Shown here piece by piece: positions 36,697 through 61,760 of a stretch of 64,000 nt of DNA. The stretch's first letter is position 1. Each line of letters begins with the position of its first letter. The translations under genes and the position numbers were made by a program. Source of the DNA: Dokdonella sp. (lineage in GTDB: Bacteria > Pseudomonadota > Gammaproteobacteria > Xanthomonadales > Rhodanobacteraceae); assembly GCA_023228465.1 (NCBI GenBank), contig JALOBC010000009.1:38443-102442 (forward strand), in the 5' to 3' direction. The notes beneath the pieces were generated by a model that saw only the letters and a list, made by a program, of their open reading frames with translations, was not told the origin of the DNA and did not search any database.

Positions 36697-37566
36697 ATGA
36701 GTTCCGCTGCAATCGACGACCCGCGCCTGCGGGCGCGCATCGTGCGCATCCATGCGCTGCCGGGCGTGCGCGCCGGCTCGGCCCTGCTGCGCTTGCCCGG
36801 GTGCCTGCTGGCGGTGCAGGACGATGCCTGGAGCATCGCCTGGATCCGCCTGCCTGATCTCGCCGTCACCCTGCAGGTGCTGCGCGGCCATGGCGGCGCG
36901 CTGACAAAGCTGGCCAAGCCGGACTTGGAAGCCGCGCTGGCAGCGCCGGACGGCCACATCTACCTGTTTGGCTCGGGGTCGCGGGCCAACCGCCGCGCGG
37001 TGGTGCGCATCAACCCGGATGGAACCGGCGTCGAAGTGCGCGAGCGCGCGGACATCTATGCGGCCATCCGTGACGCACTGGCTTTGCCAACCATGCCCAA
37101 TATCGAAGGCGCCGTGATGGCCCGTGGTCGCCTGAGGCTTTTCCACCGTGGCAGCGGGGTCGCCGCAAGTGCAAGCGTGGACCTGCCACCGGATGTCCTC
37201 GACGGAGGCGAGGCCGCTGTCATCAGCGTGCGCCGTTACAGTCTGGGCCACATCGATGGCATTCCGCTGCACATCACCGATGCCGCCGCAGCCGGCGCCG
37301 GCCGCACGGCGTTCCTTGCTGCCGCTGAAGACACTCCCGACGCGATTGCCGACGGCCCGGTCGCAGGATCCGTGATCGGGCTGATCGGTCCCGCTGGCGC
37401 GCCGGGTTGGACACGCGTGCTCGAGCCGGACGGTCGGCCCGGCACGCGCAAGTTCGAGGGACTTGTCCTGGACGCCGACCTGCGCGCCGCCTGGCTGCTG
37501 ACCGATCCCGATGCTGTCGATCGGCCGGCAGAGCTGTGCCGGGTGGAGCTGCAAGGCTTCGCCTGA
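36697..37566 (+). CDS. DUF6929-like beta-propeller protein
   Basis: A 289-residue soluble protein without a signal peptide or membrane segment. Repeating beta-rich blocks (SALLRLPGCLLAVQDDAWSI, DGHIYLFGSGSRANRRAVVR, NIEGAVMARGRLRLFHRGSG and KFEGLVLDADLRAAWLLTDP) give the pattern of a propeller related to phytase-like esterase domains. This matches what I recall of DUF6929. The function is unknown. It lies 36 bp after the cell-wall hydrolase gene and may be co-transcribed. Confidence 0.6.
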   Translation: MSSAAIDDPRLRARIVRIHALPGVRAGSALLRLPGCLLAVQDDAWSIAWIRLPDLAVTLQVLRGHGGALTKLAKPDLEAALAAPDGHIYLFGSGSRANRRAVVRINPDGTGVEVRERADIYAAIRDALALPTMPNIEGAVMARGRLRLFHRGSGVAASASVDLPPDVLDGGEAAVISVRRYSLGHIDGIPLHITDAAAAGAGRTAFLAAAEDTPDAIADGPVAGSVIGLIGPAGAPGWTRVLEPDGRPGTRKFEGLVLDADLRAAWLLTDPDAVDRPAELCRVELQGFA

Positions 37567-37577
37567 GAGGACGTGCT

Positions 37578-38861
37578 TCAGCTGCGCGCCTGTGCCAGGC
37601 GGTAGCGATGTTCGGCATGCCAGGCGCGGAAATTGGCCAGGACGGTGCAGAAGTAGATGAAGCGGAACAAATGCAGCTTGCGCTTCACCAGCGGGGTGTC
37701 GAAGAGATCCCCTGCCAGCATCGAAATCACGCCCTGCTCGACTTGCAGGGTATTGCGCGGTGCGCGGAACAGCTTCTGCATCACCGGATTGTTGAAGCGG
37801 TAGATGAAGAAGGCAAAACGCGCCATGCCGGCGCGCAGATGCTTCTCCATCCGCCGCTGCAGACGTGCTTCACACGCCGGTTCGTGCAGCGCGGCGTCCA
37901 CCACTTCGGCCGCGCGCTCCGCACCACGGGTGGCCAGATAGACGCCGGAGGAGAACACCGGGTCGAGGAAGGCGAAGGCATCGCCGACCAGTATCCAGCC
38001 CGGCCCGCCGAGCGTGCGCGCGTCATAGGAGTAGTTGCCGGAGACGTGCATGCGCCCCTCGACCAGGGTCGCACCCGCTACCCGCGCCCACAGGGCAGGA
38101 TTGAGTCTGAGGGTCTCCAGCAGGAACTCGCTGCCGCGGCCGCGACGCGTCTTGAGGTAGTCGGGCCGGCACACGGCGCCCACGCTCATCCGGCCATCGC
38201 GCAGCGGAATCATCCACATCCAGCCATGTTCGAAGTTGTAGATGCTGATGTTGCCCGCGTCTTCGCCATCGCGCCGCCGCGCGCCCAGGAAGTGGCCGAA
38301 CAATGCCGCGCTCTGGTGCTCGCGATTGCGTCGCTGCAGCTTGCCGTGGTGGGCAAGCAGCGCATCGCGGCCGCTGGCATCGACCACGTAGCGCGTCTGG
38401 ATGTGGTACTGGCTGCCATCCTCGCGGCGCACTTCGACCGTGTGCGCTCTCGGCCCGACGTGCTCAACGCCCGTCACGCAGGCGCCCTCGCGCCCATCGA
38501 CGCCCTGCTCGCGTGCATGCTCGAAGAGCATCGCATCGAAATCCGCGCGCCACACCTGGTACGCGTGCGGCGGACTCCTTCCCAATGCGCGCGCGAATGC
38601 GTAGGTGTTGTAGCCACGCTCATTATCGGCCTCGAAATCGGCGCCCGGCTTGCAGACTCCCAACGCGCGCACCTTGTCCAGCACGCCGAGTCGTTCGAAT
38701 ACCGGCAGGTTCATCGGCAACAGGGATTCACCAATATGGAAACGCGGGTGACGGGTCTTCTCCAGCTGGACCACCTTCCAGCCCTTGCGCGCCAGCAGCG
38801 TGGCCGCCGTGCTGCCGGCCGGCCCACCGCCAATCACCACGACGTCACAGGATTCAGTCAC
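37578..38861 (-). CDS. Flavin-dependent halogenase-like oxidoreductase
   Basis: A 427-residue flavoprotein. The FAD-binding motif GGGPAG is at residues 11-16. FHIGESLLPMN (41-51), a Lys in VCKPGADF (Lys71, near the position of the essential halogenase Lys) and the halogenase signature GWMWMIP (213-219) follow. DAFAFLDPVFSSGV (294-307) matches the FADH2 halogenase variant acting on carrier-bound or phenolic substrates. Related non-halogenating reductases share some of these motifs. The start is GTG 38861 with AGGAG 7 nt upstream. It lies 93 bp downstream of the first peptide/methyltransferase unit on the same strand, so it may be a tailoring enzyme of that locus. Confidence 0.72.
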   Translation of the reverse strand: MTESCDVVVIGGGPAGSTAATLLARKGWKVVQLEKTRHPRFHIGESLLPMNLPVFERLGVLDKVRALGVCKPGADFEADNERGYNTYAFARALGRSPPHAYQVWRADFDAMLFEHAREQGVDGREGACVTGVEHVGPRAHTVEVRREDGSQYHIQTRYVVDASGRDALLAHHGKLQRRNREHQSAALFGHFLGARRRDGEDAGNISIYNFEHGWMWMIPLRDGRMSVGAVCRPDYLKTRRGRGSEFLLETLRLNPALWARVAGATLVEGRMHVSGNYSYDARTLGGPGWILVGDAFAFLDPVFSSGVYLATRGAERAAEVVDAALHEPACEARLQRRMEKHLRAGMARFAFFIYRFNNPVMQKLFRAPRNTLQVEQGVISMLAGDLFDTPLVKRKLHLFRFIYFCTVLANFRAWHAEHRYRLAQARS

Positions 38862-38954
38862 GTTCGGTTCTCCTGCATGCGCTGTCTCGTGCCGTCGATG
38901 CCTGATCGAGGACCGCGGCGCGCACGCGCATGCCAATTGTCCCAGGCGCGCTCA

Positions 38955-41489
38955 TCAGGCCAGGCTGGCGCGCGTCTCGAGGCGGCTCGCGGGGTCCACG
39001 CACAGCTCGCCCAGCGGCGGGATGACCAGGGTGGTGTATTCCCGGTAATGCGCCGAGGGCAGATCGCCCAGGGCCAATCGATCCATCCGCGGCACGTCGA
39101 TCGGCAACTGCGCAGCCTCGTAGAGGATCACCTCGTGACCGGGTGGATAGAAGCGCAGCAGCTTGTCCACCAGGGCCTGCAGTCCCTCGCGTTCGGCGTG
39201 CAGGCGCGTGCAGGAAAGGTCGCCAGACAGGGCCACCTGCCACAACAGCACCAGGCCAAGCGGATCGAGCTGGCGGTCGTAATGAAGAAAGTGCGTCGCC
39301 TCGATCGATTGCACGCCGCGATGTCCGGGATCCAGGCCGAGATCGGCGTAGAGGCAGGCCTCGGCGGAAATCCCCGGCTCCATGCGCGCCGGACAACCCT
39401 CGGCACGCGCCTTGCGGATCACCCGATGCGGCACGTCGGCGAAGACCCCCGGATGGCCGTAGAACACGGCACAGACCTGCTTGCCGGCGCGCACCTCCTG
39501 CATGATCGCCGCATCGATCTCGCGGTAGGTCTGGCGCCGGTCCTTGCCGGGTGCGTAATGCAGGCCGAGATTGATCACGTCGGGGCGCATGGCACTGATC
39601 ATGCCCAAGGCAAACGGATCGGCCAGGCACAGCACGACCTCGGCCGCACGGATCTCCGACAGGCAGCGTTCGCTGGCATGGCGTCCGAACTGGATGCCAC
39701 CGCCCACCACCACGAGGCCCGCCGCCGCAGCCGGCGGTGACGCCGGATCGCGTACGCGCATCACCCGGCCGCGTCCTTCGTGCTTGGCGCGGTACAGCGC
39801 CTGGTCTGCCTCGTGAATGAGCTGTTCCAGGGATTGGGTGTGCTCATCGGCCTGACACACGCCAGCGCTGATGCCGACCCGGAAGGTCCGGCCGAAAACG
39901 GTGATGGGCTCATTGCGGTCGTGCAGGCGCTGTGCCACGGCTTCAGCCGCCTGCGCGTCCGCATCGAGCAGGACGGTGAACTCGTCGCCACCGCTGCGCC
40001 CGGCGATGCCGCGGCCATCGAGTGCCTCGCTGATCCAGTCGGCGAGCATGCGCAGCGTCGTATCGCCGGCGGCGTGACCATACCGGTCATTGACCTGCTT
40101 GAAGAGATCGACATCGATGACCAGCGCCGTGAACGCCCCGCCACTGCCACGGGCCCGCGCAAATGCCGCCTCACCGAGCCGGCGCACCTGCTGGTAGTTG
40201 TACAGGCCGGTCAGGCCGTCATGTTCGGATTGCCAGCGATAACGGCGCCGTTCGCGCGCCGATCGGTGCAGCAGGATCAACAGCAGCATCGCCGTGACCA
40301 GCGCTCCACCCAGGCCCAGTACCAGCACCAGTTGCCGACGCTGGTTCGCCGTTTCGCGTGCCTCGGCCAGTTGCTTGCCGGTTTCGAGCAGGGCGATCTG
40401 CTGTTCCCTGGACTGGGTGTCGAACTGCACCTGCAGATAGGTCAGTTGCCGTTCGCGCGCGTTGCGCTCGGCCGCGCCGTTGGCCGCCGCCGCGGCCTTC
40501 TGGTGCACCAGCGCGCTGGCCAGGTCGCCACGCAGTTCCATCAACCGCGCCAGCAAGCTCTGGGTGTCGGCGATGGAAAAATCGGAGCGTACCCGCCGGA
40601 AATACTCCAGGGCGTCGCCAAGCAGCGCCGCCGCCTGATCGAGGTCGCGACCGACGGCAATCAGGACTTCGGCGATCAGCAGCCTGGACCCATAGGCGCC
40701 GGCGACGAAGCCCGCCGAATCGAACTCCGCCAGGGATTCCTGCGCCCAGGTGAGCGCCTCGGCATGCTGCCCGCGGGCGGCAATCATCTTGCCCACGCCA
40801 TACTTTCCATTGGCGACGAAAATGGCGTCACCGGCACGCTCGCAGGCTTCGATCTGGCGATGACGCCAGGCTTCCGCCAATTGGGTATTGCCGGCCTTTT
40901 CTTCGGCGAGGGCAACATCGGCCGTGAGCCGGCAGATCACCAGGGCGTCGGGGCTGTGCGCGTCCCTGGCCAGATCCAGTCCGCGCATCGCCAGCGTGCG
41001 CGCACGGTTGACCTCGTCGACCGACGTGTACAGGTAGCTGGCTGCCTCGAGCAGGCGCGGGAATTCTTCCGGTACCGCCGGAACGTAGCTCAGCGCCTCG
41101 TTGAGCCAGGTGAAGGCCAGGGTCCAGTCTTCGATGTGGGCGGCAACATTCATTGCCGTGATGTACACGGAAATCCGCAAGCGGGGAGGAAGATCCTCAT
41201 CCAGCAACGCGCGCAATCCATCCACGGCGCTGACTTCCTCGCCGGCAATCGCGAGCTGGCGCAACCGCAGGTAATCCAGGCGCCACTTCTGGCTTGGCGA
41301 GAGCCGTGCGCGGTCGGCTTCCAGCGTCTTGATCCTGGCGCTCGATACCGCCCAGGGTGCGCTGTATACGAGCCGCTCGACCTCGCTCAGTCGCGATTCG
41401 GGATCATCGGCCGCCAGCACACCGCCAGCGACCATCAGCAGCGACAGCAGCCAGACCTCGATGCAGCGTGGCAGGGCGTAGCGCGGCAT
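38955..41489 (-). CDS. TPR - GGDEF diguanylate cyclase fused to borosin-type alpha-N-methyltransferase (copy 1)
   Basis: An 844-residue membrane protein with two catalytic domains. Residues 1-26 are a signal peptide, 30-335 a helical TPR-like periplasmic sensor, about 340-383 coiled coil, and 386-407 a transmembrane helix. The cytoplasmic GGDEF domain (about 420-580) has DVDLFKQVNDRYGHAAGD and an intact SGGDEF (499-504); the RxxD inhibitory site is absent. Residues 592-830 are a tetrapyrrole-methylase-fold domain closely matching the peptide backbone N-methyltransferases SonM and OphMA. Shared segments are VFYGHPGVF, MEPGISAEACLYADLGLDPG and LVLLWQVALSGD. Tyr645, Arg651, Tyr655 and Tyr677 fall at the OphMA Y66, R72, Y76 and Y98 positions (numbering from memory). 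It follows precursor 1 by 22 bp. Domain assignment is strong; coupling of the two activities is inference. Confidence 0.88.
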   Translation of the reverse strand: MPRYALPRCIEVWLLSLLMVAGGVLAADDPESRLSEVERLVYSAPWAVSSARIKTLEADRARLSPSQKWRLDYLRLRQLAIAGEEVSAVDGLRALLDEDLPPRLRISVYITAMNVAAHIEDWTLAFTWLNEALSYVPAVPEEFPRLLEAASYLYTSVDEVNRARTLAMRGLDLARDAHSPDALVICRLTADVALAEEKAGNTQLAEAWRHRQIEACERAGDAIFVANGKYGVGKMIAARGQHAEALTWAQESLAEFDSAGFVAGAYGSRLLIAEVLIAVGRDLDQAAALLGDALEYFRRVRSDFSIADTQSLLARLMELRGDLASALVHQKAAAAANGAAERNARERQLTYLQVQFDTQSREQQIALLETGKQLAEARETANQRRQLVLVLGLGGALVTAMLLLILLHRSARERRRYRWQSEHDGLTGLYNYQQVRRLGEAAFARARGSGGAFTALVIDVDLFKQVNDRYGHAAGDTTLRMLADWISEALDGRGIAGRSGGDEFTVLLDADAQAAEAVAQRLHDRNEPITVFGRTFRVGISAGVCQADEHTQSLEQLIHEADQALYRAKHEGRGRVMRVRDPASPPAAAAGLVVVGGGIQFGRHASERCLSEIRAAEVVLCLADPFALGMISAMRPDVINLGLHYAPGKDRRQTYREIDAAIMQEVRAGKQVCAVFYGHPGVFADVPHRVIRKARAEGCPARMEPGISAEACLYADLGLDPGHRGVQSIEATHFLHYDRQLDPLGLVLLWQVALSGDLSCTRLHAEREGLQALVDKLLRFYPPGHEVILYEAAQLPIDVPRMDRLALGDLPSAHYREYTTLVIPPLGELCVDPASRLETRASLA

Positions 41490-41511
41490 GGCGACATTCG
41501 GCCAGGCGATG

Positions 41512-41730
41512 CTATTCGTCGTAGGCCCGGATCGTGTGATCGGTGGCGAACTGCCCGTCCACCAGCCCGGTCAGGCGCTTGATCGCCGCGTAGTCCTTGT
41601 CGAGCATGGCCTTGCGCTCTGCGTCGGACAGGCCTGCGCGGCGCATGGTGGCATCCGCATCCTCGTGGTACTCGGCGGCCAACTTCGCGTCGCGACCGAG
41701 TTCGCGCATGAATTCAAGCAGCTTCGACAT
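41512..41730 (-). CDS. Split-borosin-like precursor peptide (copy 1)
   Basis: A 72-residue peptide resembling SonA of Shewanella: LLEFMRELGRDAKLAAEY, ATMRRAGLSDAERKAML and the helix ending IKRLTGL. This is the helical recognition domain that in split borosins docks on the methyltransferase (residues 3-56). The tail from about residue 60 (QFATDHTIRAYDE) is the expected core, where backbone amides would be N-methylated. AGGGG lies 9 nt before ATG 41730. Domain databases may label it LigA-like because the SonA recognition domain resembles the small subunit of LigAB dioxygenases, but no large subunit is nearby. No protease-cleavage motif is obvious. Confidence 0.85.
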   Translation of the reverse strand: MSKLLEFMRELGRDAKLAAEYHEDADATMRRAGLSDAERKAMLDKDYAAIKRLTGLVDGQFATDHTIRAYDE

Positions 41731-41854
41731 CTTGTGTTCCCCTGGGCGTGGTGAGCCGACGTGTCGCGGGGGCGCCTCGGGCGGCTCCACGACACCTTGG
41801 CAACGATCTCGAACAGGCAAGCGCCCCGGCACTCGGGGAGCCGGTGGACACTAG

Positions 41855-41876
41855 CACAAGAATTCGTGGACTTGTG
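41855..41876 (-). promoter_or_regulatory. CACAAG-N10-CTTGTG inverted repeat upstream of precursor 1
   Basis: A perfect 6-bp inverted repeat lies 125 bp before the precursor 1 start. A similar repeat (CACAAT-N8-ATTGTG) lies in the same relative place before precursor 2. On the minus strand it forms TTCACAAG...CTTGTGCTAGTG, overlapping a possible -35 (TTCACA) and a weak -10. It is a candidate operator for both units. Confidence 0.4.
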
Positions 41877-41953
41877 AAGCCTCCGACAGCTTGCCCGTCC
41901 CTCGTGTGCGTACCGCGCAGGCTGGCCTTGCGCGGCCGGGCCTGGCTGGCGAT

Positions 41954-44479
41954 TCAGGCAGGGCTGGCGTTGTACCGGCGTCGCTCCAGGGCACCGGGCC
42001 GCTGCTCATCGAGCGGCGGAATGACCAGCATGGTGTATTCATCGAAGTGCGCAGCGGGCAGGTCGCGCAGCGTGAGATGCTCGGCGCGCGGGTGATCGAC
42101 CGCCAGCTGCGGTGCTTCGTACAGGATCACCTCATGCGTGGGCGGATACCAGCGCAGCAGCTTCTGGGCCAGTGCCTGCAGCCCGGAGGACTCGGCCCGT
42201 TTGTAGTCGCCGGCAAGATTGCCCGGTCCCGCCGCCTGCCACAGCAGCACCAGCCCGGACGGATCGGGTTGGTGGTCGTAGAAGAGAAATGCGGTCGCTT
42301 CCATGGATTGCACGTCGCGCCCGCCCGCATCCAGACCCAGATCTTCGCGCAGGCAGGCGGCGGCGGAAATACCCGGTTCCACGCGCACCGGGAAGCCTTC
42401 CGCACGTGCCTTGCGGGTGACTTCCTGCGGAATGTCGGAAAACACGCCGGGGTGCCCGTAGAACACGACGCAGACCTGCTTTGCCGCGCGCACTTCCTTC
42501 AGGATCGCGCCCTGGATCTCGGCACCGGCCTGGCGCCGGTCCTTGCCGGCGGTGTAATAGCTGCCGAGGTTGACGACATCCGGGCGGAATGCGCTGACCA
42601 TGGCCAGCGCGAACGGATCGGCAAGGCAGAACGCGACCTGCGCCGAGCGGATCTCGGCCAGACAGCGCCCGCTCACGTGACGGCCGAACTGGATACCGCC
42701 CCCGACCACCACCAGGCCGGCCGCCGGGCCGGACGCGGCAGCGTCATCGCCGGCACGCACCACCCGGTCACGCCCTTCATGCTTGGCCCGATATAGCGCC
42801 TGGTCCGCTTCGTGGACGAGCTGTTCCAGGGTCATGCCCGGGGCCCTGGCCTGGCACAGCCCGGCACTGATGTTGAACTCGAAGGTGCGCCCAAACACGG
42901 TGACCGGCTCGATACGGTCGCGCAGGCGCTGCAACAGGGCATCTGCATCGTCGGCCCCGCCCTCCAGCAAGACCGTGAACTCGTCGCCACCGCTGCGCCC
43001 GGCGATGGCCTGGCTACCGGCAGCCTCGCTGATCCAGCTACCCAGTGCGCGCAGCGCCGCGTCACCCGCAGCATGGCCATAACGGTCGTTGACCTGCTTG
43101 AACAGATCGATATCGATGACCACCGCGGTAAATGGCCGGCCGCTGGCGCGCGCGCGGGCAAACGCCGGCTCGCCCAGCTTGCGCACCTGCTGGTAGTTGT
43201 ACAGGCGCGTCAGGCTGTCATGCTCGGACTGCCAGCGATAGCGCTGCCGGGCGCGCGCCGAACGGCGCAGCAGGATCGACAGCAGCACGGCAGTGATCAG
43301 CAGCCCGCCCAGCCCGAACACCAGCAGGAGCTGTCGGCGCTGGTTGGCGATCGCCTGCGCTTCCGCCAGGCGCTTTTCGGCTTCGAGCAGGGCAATCTGC
43401 TGCTCCTTGGCCTGGGTGTCGAATTGCACCTGGAGATAGGCGAGCTGGCGCTTGCGGGCCTTGCGCTCGGCGGCGGCCGTGGCAGCAATGGCCGCCTTCA
43501 GGTGCGTGAGTGCCGCAGCCTGATTGCCGGCGCGTTCGGCGAGGCGGGCGAGCAGATTCTGGGTCTCGGAAATGGCGGCATCGGCCTGCTGCTGCCGGTA
43601 GTATTCCAGGGTGCGTTCCAGCAGGGCATCGGCCCGTTTCGGATTCCGATCCAGGGCAATCAGGCTTTCCGCGACCAGCAACCTGGCGCTGTAGGCACCG
43701 CCCTCGAAACCGGCTTCCTCGAATTCGGCCAGCGCCTGGCTGCCCCAATCCAGAGCCTCTGCGTAGCGCTCCTGCCCGACGGCCATCTTGCCCACGCCAT
43801 ACTTGCCATTGGCAATGAAGATGCGATCGCCGGCACGCGTACAGGCTTCGATCTGGCGCTGGCGCCACCGCTCGGCGATCTGGAAGTTGCCTGCATGATC
43901 CTCGGCCAGCGCGACGTTGGCCAGGGCTCGGCACATGCCCAGTGGATCGCTGCCATCGGCCTCGACCTGGCGCAGCGCGCGCAGCGCCAGGTCGCGCGCC
44001 CGGCCGGTTTCGCCGACCAGCGTGTAGAGGTAGCTGGCCGCGCCCAGCAGGCGCGCCGACCCCGGTGGAGCGCTGGGCAGATAGACCAGCGCCTCGTTGA
44101 GCCAGGCGAAGGCCAGCGACCAGTCTTCGACATTGGCCGCAATGTGGATGGCCGTACCGTAGATCTGCAAGCGCAGTGCAGCCGACATGTCCTGCTTCAG
44201 CAGGGACGCCAGGCCGCGCAGGCCGGCCAACTCGTTGCCGGAAAGTGCCAGGTTGCGCAGCCGGACATATTCCACGCGCTGGCGCTGATTGGTCGTGAGG
44301 GCACCCAGCTGCGGGGCCAGGGCGTCGATTCTTGCGTTCGACTCCCGCGGCGGCGCCGTCGTGGAAAGCCGCTCGATCTCGCGGACCTGGCTCTCCAGGT
44401 CGTCGGCAGCCAGGCAAGGCATACCCACCCCTGCCAGGATCAGCAGGGCAGCAAGGGCGATGGCAAGCCGCCGGAACAT
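41954..44479 (-). CDS. TPR - GGDEF diguanylate cyclase fused to borosin-type methyltransferase domain (copy 2, altered active site)
   Basis: An 841-residue paralogue of the 38955-41489 protein. ATG 44479 gives a proper signal peptide (MFRRLAIALAALLILAGVGM); an upstream ATG at 44524 is rejected because it would add a polar leader. TPR-like region (26-330), coiled coil, transmembrane helix (about 384-404), GGDEF domain with SGGDEF (496-501) and no RxxD site, then a methyltransferase domain (588-825). VFYGHPGVF and EPGISAAACL are kept. Tyr642 and Arg648 remain, but the position of OphMA Tyr76 is Gly652 (RRQAG instead of RRQTY). RAGK is also changed to RAAK and LDPG to LDAG. The cyclase looks active; the methyltransferase may be weak or act only as a binding partner. 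It follows precursor 2 by 28 bp. Confidence 0.87.
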   Translation of the reverse strand: MFRRLAIALAALLILAGVGMPCLAADDLESQVREIERLSTTAPPRESNARIDALAPQLGALTTNQRQRVEYVRLRNLALSGNELAGLRGLASLLKQDMSAALRLQIYGTAIHIAANVEDWSLAFAWLNEALVYLPSAPPGSARLLGAASYLYTLVGETGRARDLALRALRQVEADGSDPLGMCRALANVALAEDHAGNFQIAERWRQRQIEACTRAGDRIFIANGKYGVGKMAVGQERYAEALDWGSQALAEFEEAGFEGGAYSARLLVAESLIALDRNPKRADALLERTLEYYRQQQADAAISETQNLLARLAERAGNQAAALTHLKAAIAATAAAERKARKRQLAYLQVQFDTQAKEQQIALLEAEKRLAEAQAIANQRRQLLLVFGLGGLLITAVLLSILLRRSARARQRYRWQSEHDSLTRLYNYQQVRKLGEPAFARARASGRPFTAVVIDIDLFKQVNDRYGHAAGDAALRALGSWISEAAGSQAIAGRSGGDEFTVLLEGGADDADALLQRLRDRIEPVTVFGRTFEFNISAGLCQARAPGMTLEQLVHEADQALYRAKHEGRDRVVRAGDDAAASGPAAGLVVVGGGIQFGRHVSGRCLAEIRSAQVAFCLADPFALAMVSAFRPDVVNLGSYYTAGKDRRQAGAEIQGAILKEVRAAKQVCVVFYGHPGVFSDIPQEVTRKARAEGFPVRVEPGISAAACLREDLGLDAGGRDVQSMEATAFLFYDHQPDPSGLVLLWQAAGPGNLAGDYKRAESSGLQALAQKLLRWYPPTHEVILYEAPQLAVDHPRAEHLTLRDLPAAHFDEYTMLVIPPLDEQRPGALERRRYNASPA

Positions 44480-44507
44480 GCGTGATCCACCGACGCCTGG
44501 GCGGGGC

Positions 44508-44726
44508 TCACCTGCCGTAGGCAATGATGGTGTGGTTGGTCGCGAACTGCCCGTCGACCAACCCGGTCAGGCGCTTGATCGTGGCGTAGTCCTTGTCGAG
44601 CATGGCCTTGCGCTCTTCGTCGGACAGACCCGCACGGCGCATGGTGGCATCCGCGTCCTTGCCGTATTCGGCGGCCAGCGTCGCATCACGACCGAGTTCG
44701 CGCATGAATTCGAGCAGCTTCGACAT
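44508..44726 (-). CDS. Split-borosin-like precursor peptide (copy 2)
   Basis: A 72-residue paralogue of precursor 1 (63 of 72 residues identical). The recognition region differs at only 5 of the first 63 positions, whereas the last 9 residues differ at 4 (NHTIIAYGR against DHTIRAYDE). This is the pattern of a conserved leader with a variable core. Hydrophobic IIA in the core is well suited to backbone N-methylation. A strong GGGAGGGG site is 5 nt before ATG 44726. In-frame sequence upstream of this ATG is not supported. Confidence 0.85.
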   Translation of the reverse strand: MSKLLEFMRELGRDATLAAEYGKDADATMRRAGLSDEERKAMLDKDYATIKRLTGLVDGQFATNHTIIAYGR

Positions 44727-44850
44727 TTCGTCCCCTCCCGGTGAAGAAACTTCGCCAGGCGCTACCGAAGGCACACGCTGGCGTTCGTCCAACTTCCCTG
44801 CCAAGGCAACCGGGTTTCCCCGCGCAGCCGTGGGACTGAGCGCATTAACG

Positions 44851-44870
44851 CACAATTGTTGCATATTGTG
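44851..44870 (-). promoter_or_regulatory. CACAAT-N8-ATTGTG inverted repeat and candidate promoter upstream of precursor 2
   Basis: The inverted repeat lies 125 bp before the precursor 2 start. Read on the minus strand, TTCACA (44867-44872) is followed after 18 bp by TTAATG, a plausible weak sigma-70 promoter with the repeat lying inside the spacer, as for a repressor operator. The match to the copy 1 site in sequence and distance supports a shared regulator. It also lies only 85 bp from the divergent SRPBCC gene. Confidence 0.45.
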
Positions 44871-44955
44871 AACACTTCGGGTAAAGCCCCAGCGCGCCAG
44901 CGCACGCGCACGCCACCACGACCGCACCTTCGAGCCGACGGCAAGCGAGGTTTCC

Positions 44956-45462
44956 ATGCACGAACAGTCCACTCCCAACGGACGCATCCGGCGCCTCGGC
45001 GACGGCCGCTTCGAAGGCCGCCTCCAGCGCACGTTCGAGGCTCATGCGCCAGCCACCGTATGGCGCATGCTGACCGATTCCGCCAGCCTCGCCCAATGGC
45101 TTGCCCCCGGCAGCATCGAACCGCGCCAGGGTGGCCGCGCACGCATCGACTTCGTGGACAGCGGCATTGTCATCGACAGCGAAGTGACCGAGTTCAGCGC
45201 GCCCGAGCGCCTGGCCTATTCCTGGAGCAGCAAGGATCAGCCCGCGCGTCCCCTGCGCTGGGAGCTTGCGCCCGCCGGCGCCGGCACCTGCGTCACGCTG
45301 ACGGTCGGCACGCCCGCTGGCGAGGATCCCGCCAAGGCCTGCGCCGGCTTCGAGGCCCACCTGGAAATGCTCGCCGCAGCGCTGGAAGGCGTTCCGATCA
45401 AGTTTCCGTTCGACCTGTTCATGGCGGCACGCAAGGCCTACAGCGCGCAGATCGGCGGCTGA
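44956..45462 (+). CDS. SRPBCC/AHSA1-like domain protein
   Basis: A 168-residue protein of the START/SRPBCC fold. The pattern is RTFEAHAPATVWRMLTDSAS, LAQWLAPGSIEPRQGGRARI, then EVTEFSAPERLAYSWSSKD and a C-terminal GFEAHLEMLAAALEG helix. This is the Activator-of-Hsp90-homologue-1 type (polyketide cyclase-like pocket). Such proteins bind hydrophobic ligands; the actual role is unknown. ATG 44956 has GAGG 5 nt upstream. It is divergent from precursor 2 (229 bp shared regulatory region), so co-regulation is possible but unproven. Confidence 0.82.
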   Translation: MHEQSTPNGRIRRLGDGRFEGRLQRTFEAHAPATVWRMLTDSASLAQWLAPGSIEPRQGGRARIDFVDSGIVIDSEVTEFSAPERLAYSWSSKDQPARPLRWELAPAGAGTCVTLTVGTPAGEDPAKACAGFEAHLEMLAAALEGVPIKFPFDLFMAARKAYSAQIGG

Positions 45463-45644
45463 GTTCCGCGGGTGCCAGGGAACCGGCCGTTTCCGCCAGC
45501 ACTCCGGTCGGGGCGTCGCTCGGAAAAGTGCAGAGGACGCAAGGGACTGGGCACCTTCACCACCCGGCAACCCGGCGGGCGCCGGGAGACCCCGGCGGCT
45601 CCTGGCGAATGGCGGCAGTGACGAAGACTGCGACCTGCTGCCGG

Positions 45645-49658: not shown

Positions 49659-52079
49659 TCATTGCCCTGCCTTGCCTGCCTGCGCATGGCCATTGGCGCC
49701 CCGTGTGCTGATCGCCTGCATGAGCCGATCGGCCATTTCGGTCAGCACGGCCTGCTCTTGCGGATTCACGTCACGCGGCGTGCCATCCATGATGCACAGC
49801 GCACCGAGTACATGCCCGTCGTTGTCGCGGATCGGTACGGCCGCGTAGAAGCGCACGTCGCGCTCGGCCAACAGCGGATCCTCGGCGAAGCGCGGGTCGC
49901 GGCGAATGTCGTTGACGACGAGCGCCTGAGCATTCTCGGCCAGCACGTGCGAGCAGGGCGCACCTTCACGCGGCACGACGCGCGCTTCGCGCGAGAGTGA
50001 GCCAACCGGGGTATGCACCTGCTCGGCATCGATCCAGGAGATCTCGGCGAACTGCACGTCGAACGCATTGAGCGCCTGGCGAATGGCCGCCTCATGCAGT
50101 GGAACGCAGGCCTGATCGAGCGCGCCGCTGGCGTGCAGGGCGGCAACGCGTGCGGCATCGTCGGCGGGCAGCGGTGCATCCTTGGCGCCGGCCAGCCCAC
50201 CATCGACTGGCGCAAGATGATCGACCTGCAGGATCAGTTCGCGGAAGTTGCCGGCGATGGCGTCGACACCCAGGTGGCGCAGATCGCTTTCCTCGGGCAT
50301 TTCGCTGCCGACATCCCAGGCTGCGGCAACGATCCGCACGCGCGGCAGGCTCCGGCGCAAGCGCCGTGCGATCAGGCGGATGCGCGCTTGGGGCTGCGTA
50401 CCGAAGACCGAAATGCAGGCCGTCACGGGGCGGGTCGCGGCGTGTGGCAGGTCGAGTTCGCGCGATGGCAGTATCGCGTACCTGGCGCGCCAGGTCCGGT
50501 AGCCCTGCCATGCCAACGCGTGCGTGATCATTTCTGCCGCCGCCACGTCGATATTCGTGCGCGCACCCAGGCAGTACACCAGCGGGCCGGTCGGCGTGCC
50601 CGGGGACGGGTACTGTGCGCGCAATTCGGCGAGCAGGCCCTCCATGCCCGTGGCAAAGCGCAGGCGATGCCCGGCACCGGCCGCATGGATATGCTGGCGG
50701 GTTGCCAGGCACAGGGTGGGCACGCCCACGTCGGCGTAGAAATCGACCAGCGCCGCAGCCGTGTCGTCGCCGGGTCGCGCACTGCGCCGCTGGACGACGT
50801 AACCACGGGCGAAATCCGCCGCGTCCTCCCCGTCCCCCGCGAGCAGGCGCTGGTAGAGTCGCTGCGATGGCGCCAGCGTACTTTCGCTGCCGAGCAGCAC
50901 CTCGATGAAGCGCAGCGAAGGCAGATAACGGCCCGCCACCACCAGGCAGACGGTCAGCGGGGTCGAGAGAATCAGCCCGATCGGCCCCCACAGCGCGGTC
51001 CAGAAGATCGCGGCGACGATGATCGACATGGGGCTGAGACCGGTCGTCGAACCGTACAACCACGGCTCGATGGCGTTGGCGAAGATCAGCTCCAGCGAAG
51101 CGATCAGCGCCAGGGTCCACAGCACCATGCTCCAGTCGCGCGAGACCGCAAATGCCAACGCAAGCGGGAATACCGCCGAGACGATGGAGCCGACATATGG
51201 CACGAAGCGCATCAACGCGGCGACAAAACCCCACAAGGCCGCGGACGGCACGCCGATCCACCACAGACCCAGCCCCATCGGCACGCCGTAGCAGAGATTG
51301 ACCGTGAATTGCACCCGCAGGTAGCGCCCGATGCGTGCGGAAGCCTCGTCCATGGCGTCGGTAGCCACGTGCAGGTCGGTCCCGGACAGGCGCAACAGGC
51401 GCTCGCGAATGAAGCGCCAATCCATCAGCACGAAGACCAGGAACAGCAGCGCGATGCCGACCGTGACGACCGGTTCGCTGACCTTGTCGAGCCAGTTGAG
51501 GGCGACGTGCACCGGCCGGGATTCCGGCCCGACGATCTCGACCCGCGTCGGTGCAGGCGCGCGCCGGCCATTGGCTTCGGTATCGATCTCCTTCTGCACC
51601 GTTTCCAGCGTCTTCATGGCGCCGGACCAGGCGCCGGGCTCGTAGATGGCCGTGCGCAGGGCGTGCAGCTTGGTGCGAATGGTGTGCTGGTAGGTGGGCA
51701 GGTCGGCGCTCAGCGCCGTCAATTGCGTCGTCACGTAAGCCCCGATGCCGCCGACGACGCCAAGCGCCAACCCGACCACGAGCAGGACTGCGAGGGTTCG
51801 CGGCAGGCGCCAGCGGTGCAGACGACGGACCAGCGGATCGAGCAGGAAGCCCAGCAGCATCGCCAGCGCGAACGGGATCAGCAGCGAGCGGCCGAAGTAC
51901 AGCGCGCCGATGATGATGGTCGCGATCAGCAGCGCGCTCAACGCGCGCAAGGTCGGCACCAGCGACACCAGCGTGGCGGCGAGCGCGTCCAGCTCGCCGG
52001 GCGGAGTCGCGCGCCCGGGCGCCGAGCCCGCTACGCTGGGCTGCGCAGTTCCGTCTCGCGTGGCCGGATCGATGGGCAT
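49659..52079 (-). CDS. AI-2E family permease fused to a B12-binding-like domain and a GAF domain
   Basis: An 806-residue membrane protein. Residues 35-395 are an AI-2E/PerM-type permease with about 8 helices, including LLIPFALAMLLGFLLDPLVR and GSTTGLSPMSIIVAAIFWTA. Residues about 405-620 are a cytoplasmic alpha/beta region containing DVAAAEMITHALAWQGYRTW and VDAIAGNFRELIL, similar in layout to a cobalamin-binding or receiver-like fold; no DxHxxG motif is seen. Residues 655-795 form a GAF domain with FYAAVPIRDNDGHVLGALCI. Stand-alone AI-2E permeases are about 350 residues, so two sensor-like domains have been added. A signal-gated transporter is a reasonable inference. Confidence 0.8.
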   Translation of the reverse strand: MPIDPATRDGTAQPSVAGSAPGRATPPGELDALAATLVSLVPTLRALSALLIATIIIGALYFGRSLLIPFALAMLLGFLLDPLVRRLHRWRLPRTLAVLLVVGLALGVVGGIGAYVTTQLTALSADLPTYQHTIRTKLHALRTAIYEPGAWSGAMKTLETVQKEIDTEANGRRAPAPTRVEIVGPESRPVHVALNWLDKVSEPVVTVGIALLFLVFVLMDWRFIRERLLRLSGTDLHVATDAMDEASARIGRYLRVQFTVNLCYGVPMGLGLWWIGVPSAALWGFVAALMRFVPYVGSIVSAVFPLALAFAVSRDWSMVLWTLALIASLELIFANAIEPWLYGSTTGLSPMSIIVAAIFWTALWGPIGLILSTPLTVCLVVAGRYLPSLRFIEVLLGSESTLAPSQRLYQRLLAGDGEDAADFARGYVVQRRSARPGDDTAAALVDFYADVGVPTLCLATRQHIHAAGAGHRLRFATGMEGLLAELRAQYPSPGTPTGPLVYCLGARTNIDVAAAEMITHALAWQGYRTWRARYAILPSRELDLPHAATRPVTACISVFGTQPQARIRLIARRLRRSLPRVRIVAAAWDVGSEMPEESDLRHLGVDAIAGNFRELILQVDHLAPVDGGLAGAKDAPLPADDAARVAALHASGALDQACVPLHEAAIRQALNAFDVQFAEISWIDAEQVHTPVGSLSREARVVPREGAPCSHVLAENAQALVVNDIRRDPRFAEDPLLAERDVRFYAAVPIRDNDGHVLGALCIMDGTPRDVNPQEQAVLTEMADRLMQAISTRGANGHAQAGKAGQ

Positions 52080-57939: not shown

Positions 57940-60132
57940 TCAGTGCGCCGCGTCGGGTCGCCAACCGGGATCGCCAGCGCGCCAGAACATGAAGGCGATC
58001 CAGTCGGCGGTCAGCTGGTCGGTCTGCGTCCGGGTCGAGCCGACGCCATGGCCGGCCTTGGCGTCGATCCGCAGCAGCACCGGGTTGGGCGTACCCGAGG
58101 CCTGCAGGGCAGCGGCGAACTTGGCGGGTTCCCACGGCGAGACGCGCGGGTCGTTCAGGCCGGTGGTGATCAGCACGGCAGGATAGGTGACGCCATGCTT
58201 CACGTGCTGGACCGAATCCATCGCGTACAGGTTCTTGAAGCCTTGCGCATCCTTCACCGTACCGAACTCGGGGACGTTCGGTGGACCATTCGGCGAGAAC
58301 TCGGCGCGAAGCGTGTTGGCCGCCGGCACCAGGTCGATCACGCCCGCGAACAGATCCGGGCGCTCGGTCATCGCGCGACCCACGGTAATGCCCCCGGCCG
58401 AGCCGCCGATGATGAACAGCTTGTCTTTCGTGGTAATCCCGCGGGCAATCAGATCCTCGCCGCAGGCGATCAGGTCCTGCCAGGTATGGTGCTTGTTGGC
58501 GTCCTTGCCGCCCAGGCGCCAGGACTCGCCCTTCTCGCCGCCGCCGCGCACGTGGCAGATGCCGTAGGTGATGCCCTCGCGCATCGCCGCCGCGCGGCGC
58601 GTGCTGAAGTCCGCCAGATTGGAAATCCCGTAGGAACCATAGGCCTCGACCAGGGTGATCTGCGCGCCCTTGGCCGCCTTCGGCTGGATCAGGCTCAACG
58701 GCACCATCACGCCATCGGCTGCCTTCGCCTCGAGATCGCTGACCTTGAATGCGGCCGCGTCCATGTCGCCGCGATGCCCGATGTCCAGGGCCGCGAACTT
58801 CTGCGCGACGGGGTCATAGCGGAACGTGGTCGGCTGCACGACCCAACTGGACAGATCGAGCGTGATGCCCGGCTGGCGAGGATCGGTAAACGCCTCACCG
58901 ATATGGCCCTCGAACGGCAATGCGACCTGCTCGGCCTTGTCACTGCCGACCGGAATGCGCAGCAATTGCGAATACGCGCCCTTGCGCGCCAGGACGTACA
59001 ACGCATCCGATGCCGCAGAAATCCGCTCGATGACGCGATTGGGCTGTGCCGCCAGCAGCGTTCTTGCTGCCGATAAGGGCTCTCCGGCCTTGATCGCCAG
59101 CACCTTGAAGGTCGGTGCGTCCTTGTGCGAGAGCAGGAAGATCTCCCCGCTCCGCGCATCCATGCCGGTGACCTCGTCACTGCGATCGACGAGGAGCTTC
59201 CATGCGGTCTTCGGATTGGCCACCTCCGCGACAGGCACCACCCACGCCTTCCATTCGTTTTGCACGCCGTTGATCGAAAGCGCCAGCGCCTCGTTCGAAC
59301 CCGGGGCGATGGCCAGCACGGGAAATTCCTCGGGCGCGAATCTGGGACCATGGCCGACCTGGGCGCCGAGCACCGCGAAAGGCTGGTCGCGGAGGTTCCA
59401 CCCATACAGTGTGGAGTTCTTGTAGGTATCGGTTTCCGGCTCACCAGCCTTCAATTGACGCAGGCGATTGAAATACACCGTCTTCGAATCAGGGCTCCAC
59501 GCGGTCGCGCCGAAGCGCACGCGGTCGATCGGGCTGCCGATGGCTTTGCCGCTTGCCGCGTCGTAGACCGTCATCGCGGCGTTTTCCGAGCCGCCTTCGG
59601 AGACCCCGACGGCCACCTTGCTTCCGTCCGGCGCAGCGAGGAACCAGTTGATGGCATACGGCTTGCCGCCGTTCGCCGTGCGCAGGGCGGCGATATCGAC
59701 CAGCTTGCGGGTGCCGGCGGCGTCGCGCACGATCAGGTCGAAATCATCCGCACCCGGCGCCCGTTCCTCGTAGAACGCGCGACCTCCATAGGAAACGTAG
59801 CCCTGCACGAAACCGAAGCTGCCGGTGAAGGCGGAAACGCGCTTCTGCAGCGCCGCCAACGGCTTGATTGCATCCAGTACCTTGCGCGTATAGGCCCCCT
59901 CGGCGTTCATCCAGTCCAGGGTCGCCGGGTCCAGCTTTTCCATGTAGCGATAATCGTCCGTCACCTTGACGCCGTGAAGCGTCTCGGTCACCGGCTTGAT
60001 GGGTGCCTGGGGCGGCGCGGCACCCGCGCCGATTGGCGCCAGCGGATCAGTGGCGGCCAGCACCGGCGCAGCCACGAGAATGGCGAGGGACAGGCAGAAA
60101 ACCGAAACGGCCACGCGAGTTACGGCACGCAT
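57940..60132 (-). CDS. Prolyl oligopeptidase family (S9) serine peptidase, exported
   Basis: A 730-residue periplasmic peptidase. A signal peptide (MRAVTRVAVSVFCLSLAILV, ending in VLAA) precedes a seven-bladed propeller (about residues 60-460). The alpha/beta-hydrolase domain follows with HVRGGGEKGESW, the nucleophile GGSAGG (Ser578), an Asp in TGLNDPRVSPWEP (Asp661) and His695 in AGHGVG, giving a complete triad. Family members cleave short peptides after proline. Numerous Xanthomonadales paralogues exist. ATG 60132 has GGAG upstream. Confidence 0.92.
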   Translation of the reverse strand: MRAVTRVAVSVFCLSLAILVAAPVLAATDPLAPIGAGAAPPQAPIKPVTETLHGVKVTDDYRYMEKLDPATLDWMNAEGAYTRKVLDAIKPLAALQKRVSAFTGSFGFVQGYVSYGGRAFYEERAPGADDFDLIVRDAAGTRKLVDIAALRTANGGKPYAINWFLAAPDGSKVAVGVSEGGSENAAMTVYDAASGKAIGSPIDRVRFGATAWSPDSKTVYFNRLRQLKAGEPETDTYKNSTLYGWNLRDQPFAVLGAQVGHGPRFAPEEFPVLAIAPGSNEALALSINGVQNEWKAWVVPVAEVANPKTAWKLLVDRSDEVTGMDARSGEIFLLSHKDAPTFKVLAIKAGEPLSAARTLLAAQPNRVIERISAASDALYVLARKGAYSQLLRIPVGSDKAEQVALPFEGHIGEAFTDPRQPGITLDLSSWVVQPTTFRYDPVAQKFAALDIGHRGDMDAAAFKVSDLEAKAADGVMVPLSLIQPKAAKGAQITLVEAYGSYGISNLADFSTRRAAAMREGITYGICHVRGGGEKGESWRLGGKDANKHHTWQDLIACGEDLIARGITTKDKLFIIGGSAGGITVGRAMTERPDLFAGVIDLVPAANTLRAEFSPNGPPNVPEFGTVKDAQGFKNLYAMDSVQHVKHGVTYPAVLITTGLNDPRVSPWEPAKFAAALQASGTPNPVLLRIDAKAGHGVGSTRTQTDQLTADWIAFMFWRAGDPGWRPDAAH

Positions 60133-60218
60133 GCGCGACTCTCCGCTGGATTTTCGGCCGAGTCTACAACTGGTGAATCGCGCTGTCGCTACCCCCATTT
60201 CGTGAACTTTCCGACAGT

Positions 60219-61760
60219 TCAGCCAAAACTCGGCATGGGCGGCCACAGCTTCCGAATCGGCACCCTGAAATCGCGGCAGACAAAGATGTCGGGATGCCCG
60301 CTTTCTTCGTTCTTGACGCCGTGCGGGATGCGCACGCGCCCGGCCAGCGTGCAGGTGGCCGGCGTGTGGCTGATGCCGTCGGCGGTATCGTCCAGCACGA
60401 TGACGGTTTGCGGCGGCGGATCACCCGGGCCACGCGCCCAGTAGCTGTTGACGGTGCCGATGGCCGGCGGCAGTCCGAACCCTGGGCCAAGGCGATCGAT
60501 GGCGCCGGCCTCGCCATAGTTGTTGGCGAAGATTGCGGTGCGGGCGCGTTCCCCGGCCGGCAGCGCGTGGTAGACGCGGGCGACTTCGGCCACCAGTTGC
60601 GGCCAGCCGATCTGTTCGGCAAAGGTGTCGTGGAAGCGGCGACTGATCTGCCAGCCCATGGATCCCACCGCTGCCAGCGGCAGCGCCACCAGTGCCGTCA
60701 AACCGAACGCACAGGCGAGCACCACGCCGACGCCGGCGCGACTCCAGCGCGCAGCCGAGGGTCGCATTCCCGCGATGCCCCTTTCCAGCGCCACCGCACC
60801 CGCCGACAGCAGCATCGGATAGCCGGGCGCAACGTAATAGTCGCGCCCGCGCACCAGCAGGAACAGCAGCAGCGGGACCACGTACATCCATGCCAGAACC
60901 CGCCAGCGGGCCGCGGCGCGGGCCAACGCGAGCCAGGCCAGGCCGGCGATCCACAGCGGCAAGGTCAGGGGACTGGCGCCGACCGTCAGCTGGCCGACCA
61001 GGAAACCATCGGTGCGGCCGATGCGCACATCGCGCTCGTGCAGGTGGCGCGCGAAATCCAGATAGATGAAATCGTGCTGCCACTGCCACCACGCGTTGGG
61101 CAGGAACAGCAGCAGCGATACCGCCACCCCGGCCCATAGCCACGGGCTGCGCAGGTGCTGACGCACGGGGGTGGCCAGCACGCCGATCGCCAGGCCCGCG
61201 ACCCAGAACAGCATGGTGTAGCGCGTCATCATGCCCAGGCCAACGACCAGGCCCACGCCGAGCCACCAGCGCGCATCGCCACTGTTGGCCACGCGCAGCA
61301 CCAGCCACGCCAGCAGCACCACCCACAAATAGTCGAGGCTGGTGTACATCAGCATGCTGCCCATCAGCATGGACAGCGGCGCGCAGGCGATGGCCAGCGC
61401 CGCAAGCACCTGCGCCATGCGCCGCCCGCCGAGCTCGCGCGCGATCAATCCCGCCAGCAACATCGCCACGCTCTGCGCGAGCGCCGCGGGCACGCGGAAG
61501 GCAACCAGCGAATCGCCAAACAGCGCCATCGACAGCCGCGCCAGGAAGGGTGTCAACGGCGGATAGGCGACATAGCCCCAGGCCAGGTGCCGCGCGTCGT
61601 TCCACACCGCCAGCTCATCGCGATGGAAGCCGTAGTTGACGTTGGCGCAGAAGTGCAGCAACAGGCGTGCAAGCACCAGGCCGAACAGGATCAGCAGGGT
61701 TGTCCGCTGGCGTTCGTCCAACCGGGGCCGTCGCCCCGCATCGATGGTCGGCAGTGACAT
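60219..61760 (-). CDS. GT39/ArnT-like integral membrane glycosyltransferase
   Basis: A 513-residue protein with about 10 transmembrane helices in the first 400 residues. The periplasmic loop near the start, NYGFHRDELAVWNDARHLAW, carries the acidic Asp/Glu typical of GT39 (RxDE). GYVAYPPLTPFLARLSMALF matches the PMT/ArnT family. A soluble C-terminal domain (about 420-513) contains IFANNYGEAGAIDRLG and VCRDFRVP. Such enzymes use polyprenyl-phosphate sugars to glycosylate proteins or lipid A. The acceptor is unknown. ATG 61760 is used. Confidence 0.85.
   Translation of the reverse strand: MSLPTIDAGRRPRLDERQRTTLLILFGLVLARLLLHFCANVNYGFHRDELAVWNDARHLAWGYVAYPPLTPFLARLSMALFGDSLVAFRVPAALAQSVAMLLAGLIARELGGRRMAQVLAALAIACAPLSMLMGSMLMYTSLDYLWVVLLAWLVLRVANSGDARWWLGVGLVVGLGMMTRYTMLFWVAGLAIGVLATPVRQHLRSPWLWAGVAVSLLLFLPNAWWQWQHDFIYLDFARHLHERDVRIGRTDGFLVGQLTVGASPLTLPLWIAGLAWLALARAAARWRVLAWMYVVPLLLFLLVRGRDYYVAPGYPMLLSAGAVALERGIAGMRPSAARWSRAGVGVVLACAFGLTALVALPLAAVGSMGWQISRRFHDTFAEQIGWPQLVAEVARVYHALPAGERARTAIFANNYGEAGAIDRLGPGFGLPPAIGTVNSYWARGPGDPPPQTVIVLDDTADGISHTPATCTLAGRVRIPHGVKNEESGHPDIFVCRDFRVPIRKLWPPMPSFG

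Follow-up and report, generated by a model that had tools for sequence, protein, structure and literature searches.

Why is a peptide N-methyltransferase of the borosin type joined to a membrane-bound GGDEF protein in Dokdonella, and what might the peptide encoded beside it have to do with the signalling part of that protein? The question is raised by a stretch of 64,000 nucleotides from Dokdonella sp. contig JALOBC010000009.1, which is called the window here; throughout, "the genus" is Dokdonella and "the family" is Rhodanobacteraceae. At 38955-44726 on the minus strand, the window carries two tandem units, each with a gene for a 72-amino-acid (aa) peptide and then a gene for a multidomain protein of ~840 aa. 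Our reading, to which we assign a probability of roughly one half, is that the units represent, in fused form, a signalling module whose parts have separate genes in relatives, and that the peptide is probably sensed by the periplasmic TPR domain. In the order of transcription, the genes are the P0004 peptide, P0002 after 28 bp, the P0003 peptide after a further 223 bp, and P0001 after 22 bp. A preliminary description, made from the letters alone, had proposed a tandem duplicate of a peptide with a signal peptide-TPR-transmembrane (TM)-GGDEF-methylase protein, and the coordinates, the gaps of 28 and 22 bp and the architecture were all confirmed. The features are as follows.

44508..44726, minus strand: P0004, borosin precursor of the upstream unit, 72 aa, SonA/LigA-like binding domain and tail (Pfam, PEP profile); GQFATNHTIIAYGR
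41954..44479, minus strand: P0002, 841 aa, signal peptide, TPR, TM, GGDEF and a degenerate borosin methyltransferase (MT) (Pfam, alignment)
41512..41730, minus strand: P0003, borosin precursor of the downstream unit, 72 aa, five helices within 3-54 and a disordered tail at 59-72 (PDB sequence search, model)
38955..41489, minus strand: P0001, 844 aa, signal peptide, TPR, TM, GGDEF and borosin MT with SonM Tyr58, Arg67, Tyr71 and Tyr93 kept (Pfam, PDB search, alignment, model)
40335..41411, minus strand: predicted periplasmic part of P0001, residues ~27-385, TPR solenoid 30-319 and the start of the long helix (Pfam, hydrophobicity, model)
39756..40226, minus strand: GGDEF domain of P0001, residues 422-578, motif at 500 (Pfam, model)
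38955..39728, minus strand: borosin N-methyltransferase domain of P0001, residues 588-844 and stop (PDB search, alignment)

The C-terminal domain belongs with the borosin enzymes. Among PDB sequences, the C-terminus of P0001 matched SonM first (E 9e-67) and then the fungal OphM, OphMA and MroMA (E 3e-40 to 7e-33), so that the likeness to SonM and OphMA put forward earlier holds. The sole non-borosin among the 26 PDB sequences listed was a precorrin-2 methyltransferase (E 0.0022). The MT domain was 48% identical to SonM in P0001 and 41% in P0002, and both proteins matched Pfam TP_methylase (E 7e-17 and 1e-14). The motif PGISAEACL, which had been given for both units, fails for P0002, where it reads PGISAAACL. 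With the P0001 structure model as the Foldseek query, the best 50 of 1668 matches were all borosin methyltransferases. The MT part of this full-length model is badly arranged (best match with a TM-score of 0.50 by target, a root-mean-square deviation of 16 Å and 254 columns), and therefore, for the MT domain, the model was used for identity only.

The two small peptides resemble the separate precursor of the SonM system. Both match Pfam LigA just below its cut-off (24.1 and 24.5 against 25.3 bits), and P0004 matched our precursor profile, PEP, at E 1e-18, its own row being part of that profile. SonA was the top match of P0003 among PDB sequences (E 1.6e-6). In the P0003 model, helices are formed by residues 3-13, 15-23, 25-31, 36-43 and 47-54, and the tail at 59-72 has a predicted local distance difference test score (pLDDT) below 50. 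The first 21 Foldseek matches of this model were SonA chains (best E 0.013, none at 0.001; probability 1.00; TM-score 0.93 by target), while LigA appeared at rank 48. According to PMC8429565, the binding domain of SonA likewise consists of five helices and is followed by a linker (54-61) and the core (62-71). The match to the SonA recognition domain, also part of the preliminary description, is thus borne out by the sequence search and by the predicted five-helix bundle with its loose tail.

Pfam GGDEF was matched in both large proteins (E 5e-36 and 4e-34), with an intact GG(D/E)EF active-site motif at residue 500 of P0001 and 497 of P0002, and no RxxD inhibitory site was found at its usual place in P0001 or P0002. 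Pfam TPR_12 scored 28.9 and 25.1 bits, short of its cut-off of 30.1. Hydrophobicity is strongest in two segments, at the N-terminus and at ~381-411, the latter followed by arginines; weaker hydrophobic windows occur within the TPR part of P0001 and in the MT domains of both proteins. By the positive-inside rule, the arginines after the TM segment would put the TPR part in the periplasm and GGDEF and MT in the cytoplasm, and the predicted topology is therefore signal peptide, periplasmic TPR, TM, and cytoplasmic GGDEF and MT. The P0001 model (mean pLDDT 87, predicted template modelling score 0.52) consists of a TPR solenoid at 30-319, a single helix of ~100 residues at 323-422 across the membrane position, GGDEF at ~432-578, a disordered linker at 581-588 and the MT from 591.

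An assembly or frameshift artefact as the source of the fusion was ruled out, because 5 of 16 genus genomes contain it in uninterrupted form, in six frames that measure 829-893 codons from stop to stop. The MT is present in 5 of these 16 genomes, with seven matches, six in the fused frames and one in genome G465. There, a second copy has decayed to a C-terminal MT fragment of ~90 residues (L046:5594-6556), the sole part recognised by the four profiles; it is included among the seven own-genus MT frames in the neighbourhood counts. A precursor lies upstream of all six fused genes, and a sixth genus genome, G487, has a precursor and a TPR at a contig end. Carriage of the fusion on plasmids was rejected: when P0001 was compared by tblastn with 72,556 plasmid records, 4228 matched and none covered 80% of the query.

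To place the fusion among its relatives, the surroundings of related MTs were compared. A related MT was found in 128 of 197 family genomes, 123 of them outside the genus, and one locus each was taken from 45 of the 123. Eight of these loci (L050-L053 and L057-L060) were chosen for long open frames and the rest one per genome across genera; none was chosen by its neighbourhood. None of the 45 is fused. A TPR-GGDEF gene lies on the same strand within 3 kb of the MT at 44 of the 45 loci and a precursor at 44 of 45, the sole exception being L108, near a contig end. The long MT frames of L050-L053 and L057-L060 (452-757 codons) were considered as further fusions and rejected, as no TPR or GGDEF match lies inside them. 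The commonest gene order outside the genus is MT, precursor, TPR-GGDEF, exactly so at 31 of 65 loci; as orders were taken from stop-to-stop frames, a TPR frame that is extended upstream may enclose a precursor, which can then be listed behind the TPR gene. Several precursors per MT, or serial precursor/TPR-GGDEF pairs behind one MT, are seen at L052, L053, L056, L081 and L093.

Searches of 369 class and 398 phylum genomes outside the family gave 20 MT loci, all of which were analysed. A TPR sensor stands beside the MT at 14 of them, at 13 on the MT strand; eleven of the 14 have a TPR-GGDEF gene (L049 has both kinds of sensor) and three have a TPR histidine kinase only. Precursors were detected at 10 of these 14 sensor-bearing loci, one weakly (L122, E 2e-4). 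Four TPR sensors outside the family are TPR-HisKA-HATPase-REC proteins; all four were recovered at 2e-52 to 6e-15, with the best control at 3e-4, by a TPR profile whose sole basis was 74 TPR-GGDEF proteins. L049:5788-11793 reads precursor, TPR-HisKA-HATPase-REC, MT and TPR-GGDEF, that is, two homologous TPR sensors with different outputs in one locus. At L127:4840-8373 (G583, same phylum, other class), a borosin-like MT occupies residues 73-314 of a 1177-codon frame with no other Pfam domain, which may be a further fused borosin type. Among the loci examined, the TPR-GGDEF-MT fusion is confined to the genus.

In 20 control regions from family genomes, one weak TPR-GGDEF match, three GGDEF matches of any kind and no precursor were found. 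The observation is real and well above chance, and the coupling of MT, precursor and TPR sensor is well supported.

The same association was approached from the TPR side in 20 whole family genomes, with one TPR and one MT query sequence, which gave 40 TPR and 26 MT places. At a distance limit of 5 kb, every MT (26/26) has a TPR neighbour and 31 of the 40 TPR genes have an MT neighbour; both counts were made by eye from the listed positions. The 20 genomes are all among those of the 45 family loci, and thus the MT-to-TPR count is not independent of them; the TPR and MT counts are independent of the profiles trained on the test loci. Nine TPR-GGDEF genes have no MT nearby, and at seven of these the gene immediately upstream encodes a precursor-like peptide (E 2e-22 to 5e-6), which argues for a pairing of peptide and sensor. 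Taken with the matches to the TPR-kinases, these counts indicate that the most constant pair is precursor and TPR sensor, whereas the output domain differs between loci and the MT is not always in the same place.

The origin of the fusion was examined in an MT tree of 48 rows, which held every second row of the other family genera and was midpoint-rooted for drawing only. The six fused MTs form one group, with modest support (SH-aLRT 80), and this group adjoins L049 (family f176) and L115 (family f193), not the stand-alone MTs of its own family. In L115, a close unfused relative, separate genes for precursor, TPR-GGDEF and MT follow one another just as the corresponding parts of the fused unit do. 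A single fusion of an L115-like operon is the simplest account, and transfer between families may have played a part.

The two copies have diverged. In an alignment of 73 rows, P0001 keeps the equivalents of SonM Y58, R67, Y71 and Y93; P0002 keeps those of Y58, R67 and Y93 and has Gly in place of Y71. The Y71 column is Tyr in 70 of the 73 rows, the others being the Gly of P0002, a Gln in the aberrant L098 and a gap in a fragment. In SonM, the Y71F change lowers kcat 84-fold, according to PMC8429565. The L098 frame (L098:6021-6947, G275) is MT-like and has all SonM catalytic positions replaced in the alignment, and it is probably either a TP methylase of another kind or a distant one that was misaligned. 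With L098 and the decayed L046 fragment left out, as in the MT tree also, the MT of P0002 departs at 9 of 41 near-invariant columns, more than any other of the 71 rows compared, and that of P0001 at 0 of 38. In separate trees for each domain, the branch of P0002 was 0.48 against 0.10 for P0001 for the MT, where it is the fastest, 0.26 against 0.53 for the TPR and 0.17 against 0.24 for GGDEF; the topologies of these three trees disagree. Pairwise dN/dS against the relative in G497 was 0.20/0.58 for the P0002 MT and 0.10/0.75 for the P0001 MT. Together, the branch lengths, column changes and dN/dS suggest that the P0002 MT is relaxed or repurposed with some constraint left, whereas sensor and cyclase have been preserved. 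P0002 is probably a poor methyltransferase, if it is active at all. Both tandem duplicates are real, as had been claimed, but they are not equivalent, since P0002 lacks the catalytic tyrosine and only the P0001 MT has the full catalytic set.

For the fused signalling module, we propose the following course. As homology to SonM suggests, the helical leader of the precursor would dock on the cytoplasmic MT domain of P0001, which would N-methylate backbone amides in the C-terminal tail of the precursor. From the gene coupling and the topology, the mature peptide would then leave the cytoplasm and be bound by the periplasmic TPR solenoid, and the transmembrane helix of ~100 residues would relay this binding to a GGDEF dimer, presumably an active cyclase, and change the level of cyclic di-GMP (c-di-GMP). 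In P0002, the GGDEF motif is intact, and the MT fold has probably been retained for binding peptide or as a scaffold. Sensing of the peptide by the TPR domain is inferred from gene association and topology, and several points weigh against the module as proposed. Gene neighbourhood establishes functional coupling, but does not tell which part senses what. The weak point of the mechanism is the route of peptide export: no exporter or leader protease common to the fused loci was found in the few kb compared around them, and the precursors start straight at the helical binding domain with no segment like a signal peptide. No similar solved structure was found for the TPR domain by PDB sequence search (best E 0.74). 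Two of the 40 TPR genes in the reverse search have neither MT nor precursor, one of the two being broken. Outside the family, four of six loci of family f140 (L116, L117, L118 and L120) have no detected precursor, the TPR gene of L120 is on the opposite strand, and 6 of the 20 MT loci have no TPR sensor; these six have the weakest MT matches (E at least 3e-46, against at most 2e-47 for the other 14) and no precursor. In addition, part of the training set of the TPR and precursor profiles used for the neighbourhoods came from the test loci and none of it from the controls, which biases the comparison towards the test side, and the controls come from 20 family genomes only.

The preliminary description favoured another arrangement, in which the TPR domain senses an unrelated periplasmic signal and gates both c-di-GMP synthesis and methylation, the peptide being the output. 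We regard this as unlikely. It is compatible with the topology and the fusion, and there is a precedent in a predicted cytoplasmic TPR-GGDEF protein of Vibrio vulnificus, which is repressed by its own TPR and freed by a TPR partner protein (PMC12282931). However, at none of the 58 TPR-bearing loci outside the genus do TPR sensor and MT share a polypeptide, so that gating of the MT by the TPR domain would there have to act in trans, and seven of the nine TPR-GGDEF genes away from an MT keep the precursor-like peptide upstream. On this comparative evidence, the TPR domain is more likely to have the peptide itself as its partner than to answer to an outside signal that gates both activities.

A rather improbable alternative is allostery within the cytoplasm, whereby docking of the precursor, or dimerisation of the MT, switches the GGDEF dimer, methylation is possibly secondary and P0002 is a pure peptide sensor. 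SonM is active as a homodimer (PMC8429565), and diguanylate cyclases typically function as dimers (PMC12282931). The divergence of P0002 would also fit, its MT branch being the fastest and its TPR and GGDEF branches shorter than those of P0001. Against this, none of the relatives examined outside the genus has MT and GGDEF in one protein, so that such allostery would be peculiar to the fusion, and the disordered linker at 581-588 speaks against tight coupling. We give still less credence to a fusion of mere convenience between co-transcribed neighbours, with methylation and c-di-GMP synthesis independent and the peptide being, for example, an extracellular product formed in biofilms: the genes are indeed already adjacent in relatives, and L115 has the same order unfused, but the fusion is retained in 5 of 16 genus genomes and the TPR/precursor pair is retained away from the MT. 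Finally, that the domain is a methylase of the cobalamin/siroheme type with a coincidental peptide, a possibility raised at the outset for which the Pfam assignment to the broad TP_methylase family speaks, is clearly refuted by the matches to SonM (E 9e-67) and to OphM and MroMA (down to 7e-33) against 0.0022 for the precorrin-2 methyltransferase, and by the 50 of 50 listed Foldseek matches to borosin enzymes, and has next to no chance of being correct.

The genes and signals around the preferred fused module were surveyed in the window. No sigma-70 promoter was found in 37400-45500, where 0.6 were expected by chance, and one terminator-like site was observed there against 4.2 expected. No export, tailoring or leader-protease gene common to the fused loci was found when the seven flanking proteins of the window were compared with four fused loci and L049, over a few kb each; a DUF188 protein was the sole one to recur, at one of the five compared loci (L045). 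A Trp_halogenase/FAD-dependent oxidoreductase gene (37578-38936, minus strand) lies immediately 3' of P0001; it has no match in the stretches around the four other fused loci and is therefore probably outside the system. A prolyl oligopeptidase gene (Peptidase_S9; 57940-60246, minus strand) lies ~13 kb from the units. S9 peptidases are common; OphP, which cyclises the fungal borosin omphalotin, is a prolyl oligopeptidase (PMC12235650). At 49659-52079 on the minus strand, an 806-aa protein joins an AI-2E family transporter domain to a GAF domain.

The closest described system is SonM/SonA of Shewanella oneidensis, a type IV split borosin (PMC8429565; PDB 7LTC). It likewise has a separate precursor with a five-helix binding domain and a loose C-terminal tail, and its catalytic residues are kept in P0001. 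In contrast, the MT is here the C-terminal domain of a membrane TPR-GGDEF protein, the units are duplicated and P0002 lacks Tyr71. The fungal OphMA and MroMA share the MT family, but their core peptide is fused to the MT, whereas here the peptide is separate and the MT is fused to a signalling protein. RcbB of V. vulnificus has its TPR N-terminal to GGDEF, as here, and this TPR controls the cyclase; RcbA and RcbB are predicted to be cytoplasmic and the accessible part of their description mentions no methyltransferase (PMC12282931), whereas here the signal peptide and TM segment would place the TPR outside. The Figure 1 legend of a 2024 paper names a "GGDEF-sequence-containing domain" among borosin architectures (PMC11395268), and hence the bare link between GGDEF and borosins is prior knowledge; the legend gives neither the borosin type nor whether the domain is fused or neighbouring, and mentions no TPR sensor, tandem or degenerate copy. 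The supposed absence of any described GGDEF-borosin fusion thus no longer holds as worded, although the fusion with SonA-like precursors is real. Borosin types V-X are credited to Cho et al. and Imani et al. in a review (PMC11285071). In the literature, we found no TPR-sensor pairing, histidine-kinase variant, precursor-sensor pair away from the MT or degenerate fused MT, which is weak evidence of absence as few subscription papers were reached. Within the literature searched, the TPR-sensor neighbourhood, the precursor/sensor pairs away from an MT and the degenerate MT copy are new here.

The role of bacterial split borosins is largely open, and in 2021 no type IV pathway had yet been tied to a final natural product, as stated in the SonM paper (PMC8429565). 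The MT nearest to SonM in our set, that of L121 (78% identical), is a stand-alone enzyme with a TPR-GGDEF gene beside its precursor, and so the idea may be testable in Shewanella. A 2023 paper reportedly describes one such final natural product, from Shewanella. The frequent periplasmic TPR sensor partner offers the hypothesis that the peptides are signals or ligands of the sensor. As a tentative and rather doubtful extension, ribosomal peptides with N-methylated backbones might serve as signals in the family and related bacteria, where a dedicated family of periplasmic TPR receptors would detect them and act through c-di-GMP or histidine kinases, while in the genus synthase, receptor and cyclase would have become one polypeptide and the duplicate MT would have turned into a non-catalytic peptide binder. 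For biochemistry, it is convenient that the fused form carries enzyme and sensor in a single chain, and P0002 is a naturally degenerate copy in which a peptide-binding role of the MT fold can be put to the test. The main value of the finding is a testable function for bacterial borosins, and the coupling suggests that modified peptides take part in bacterial signalling.

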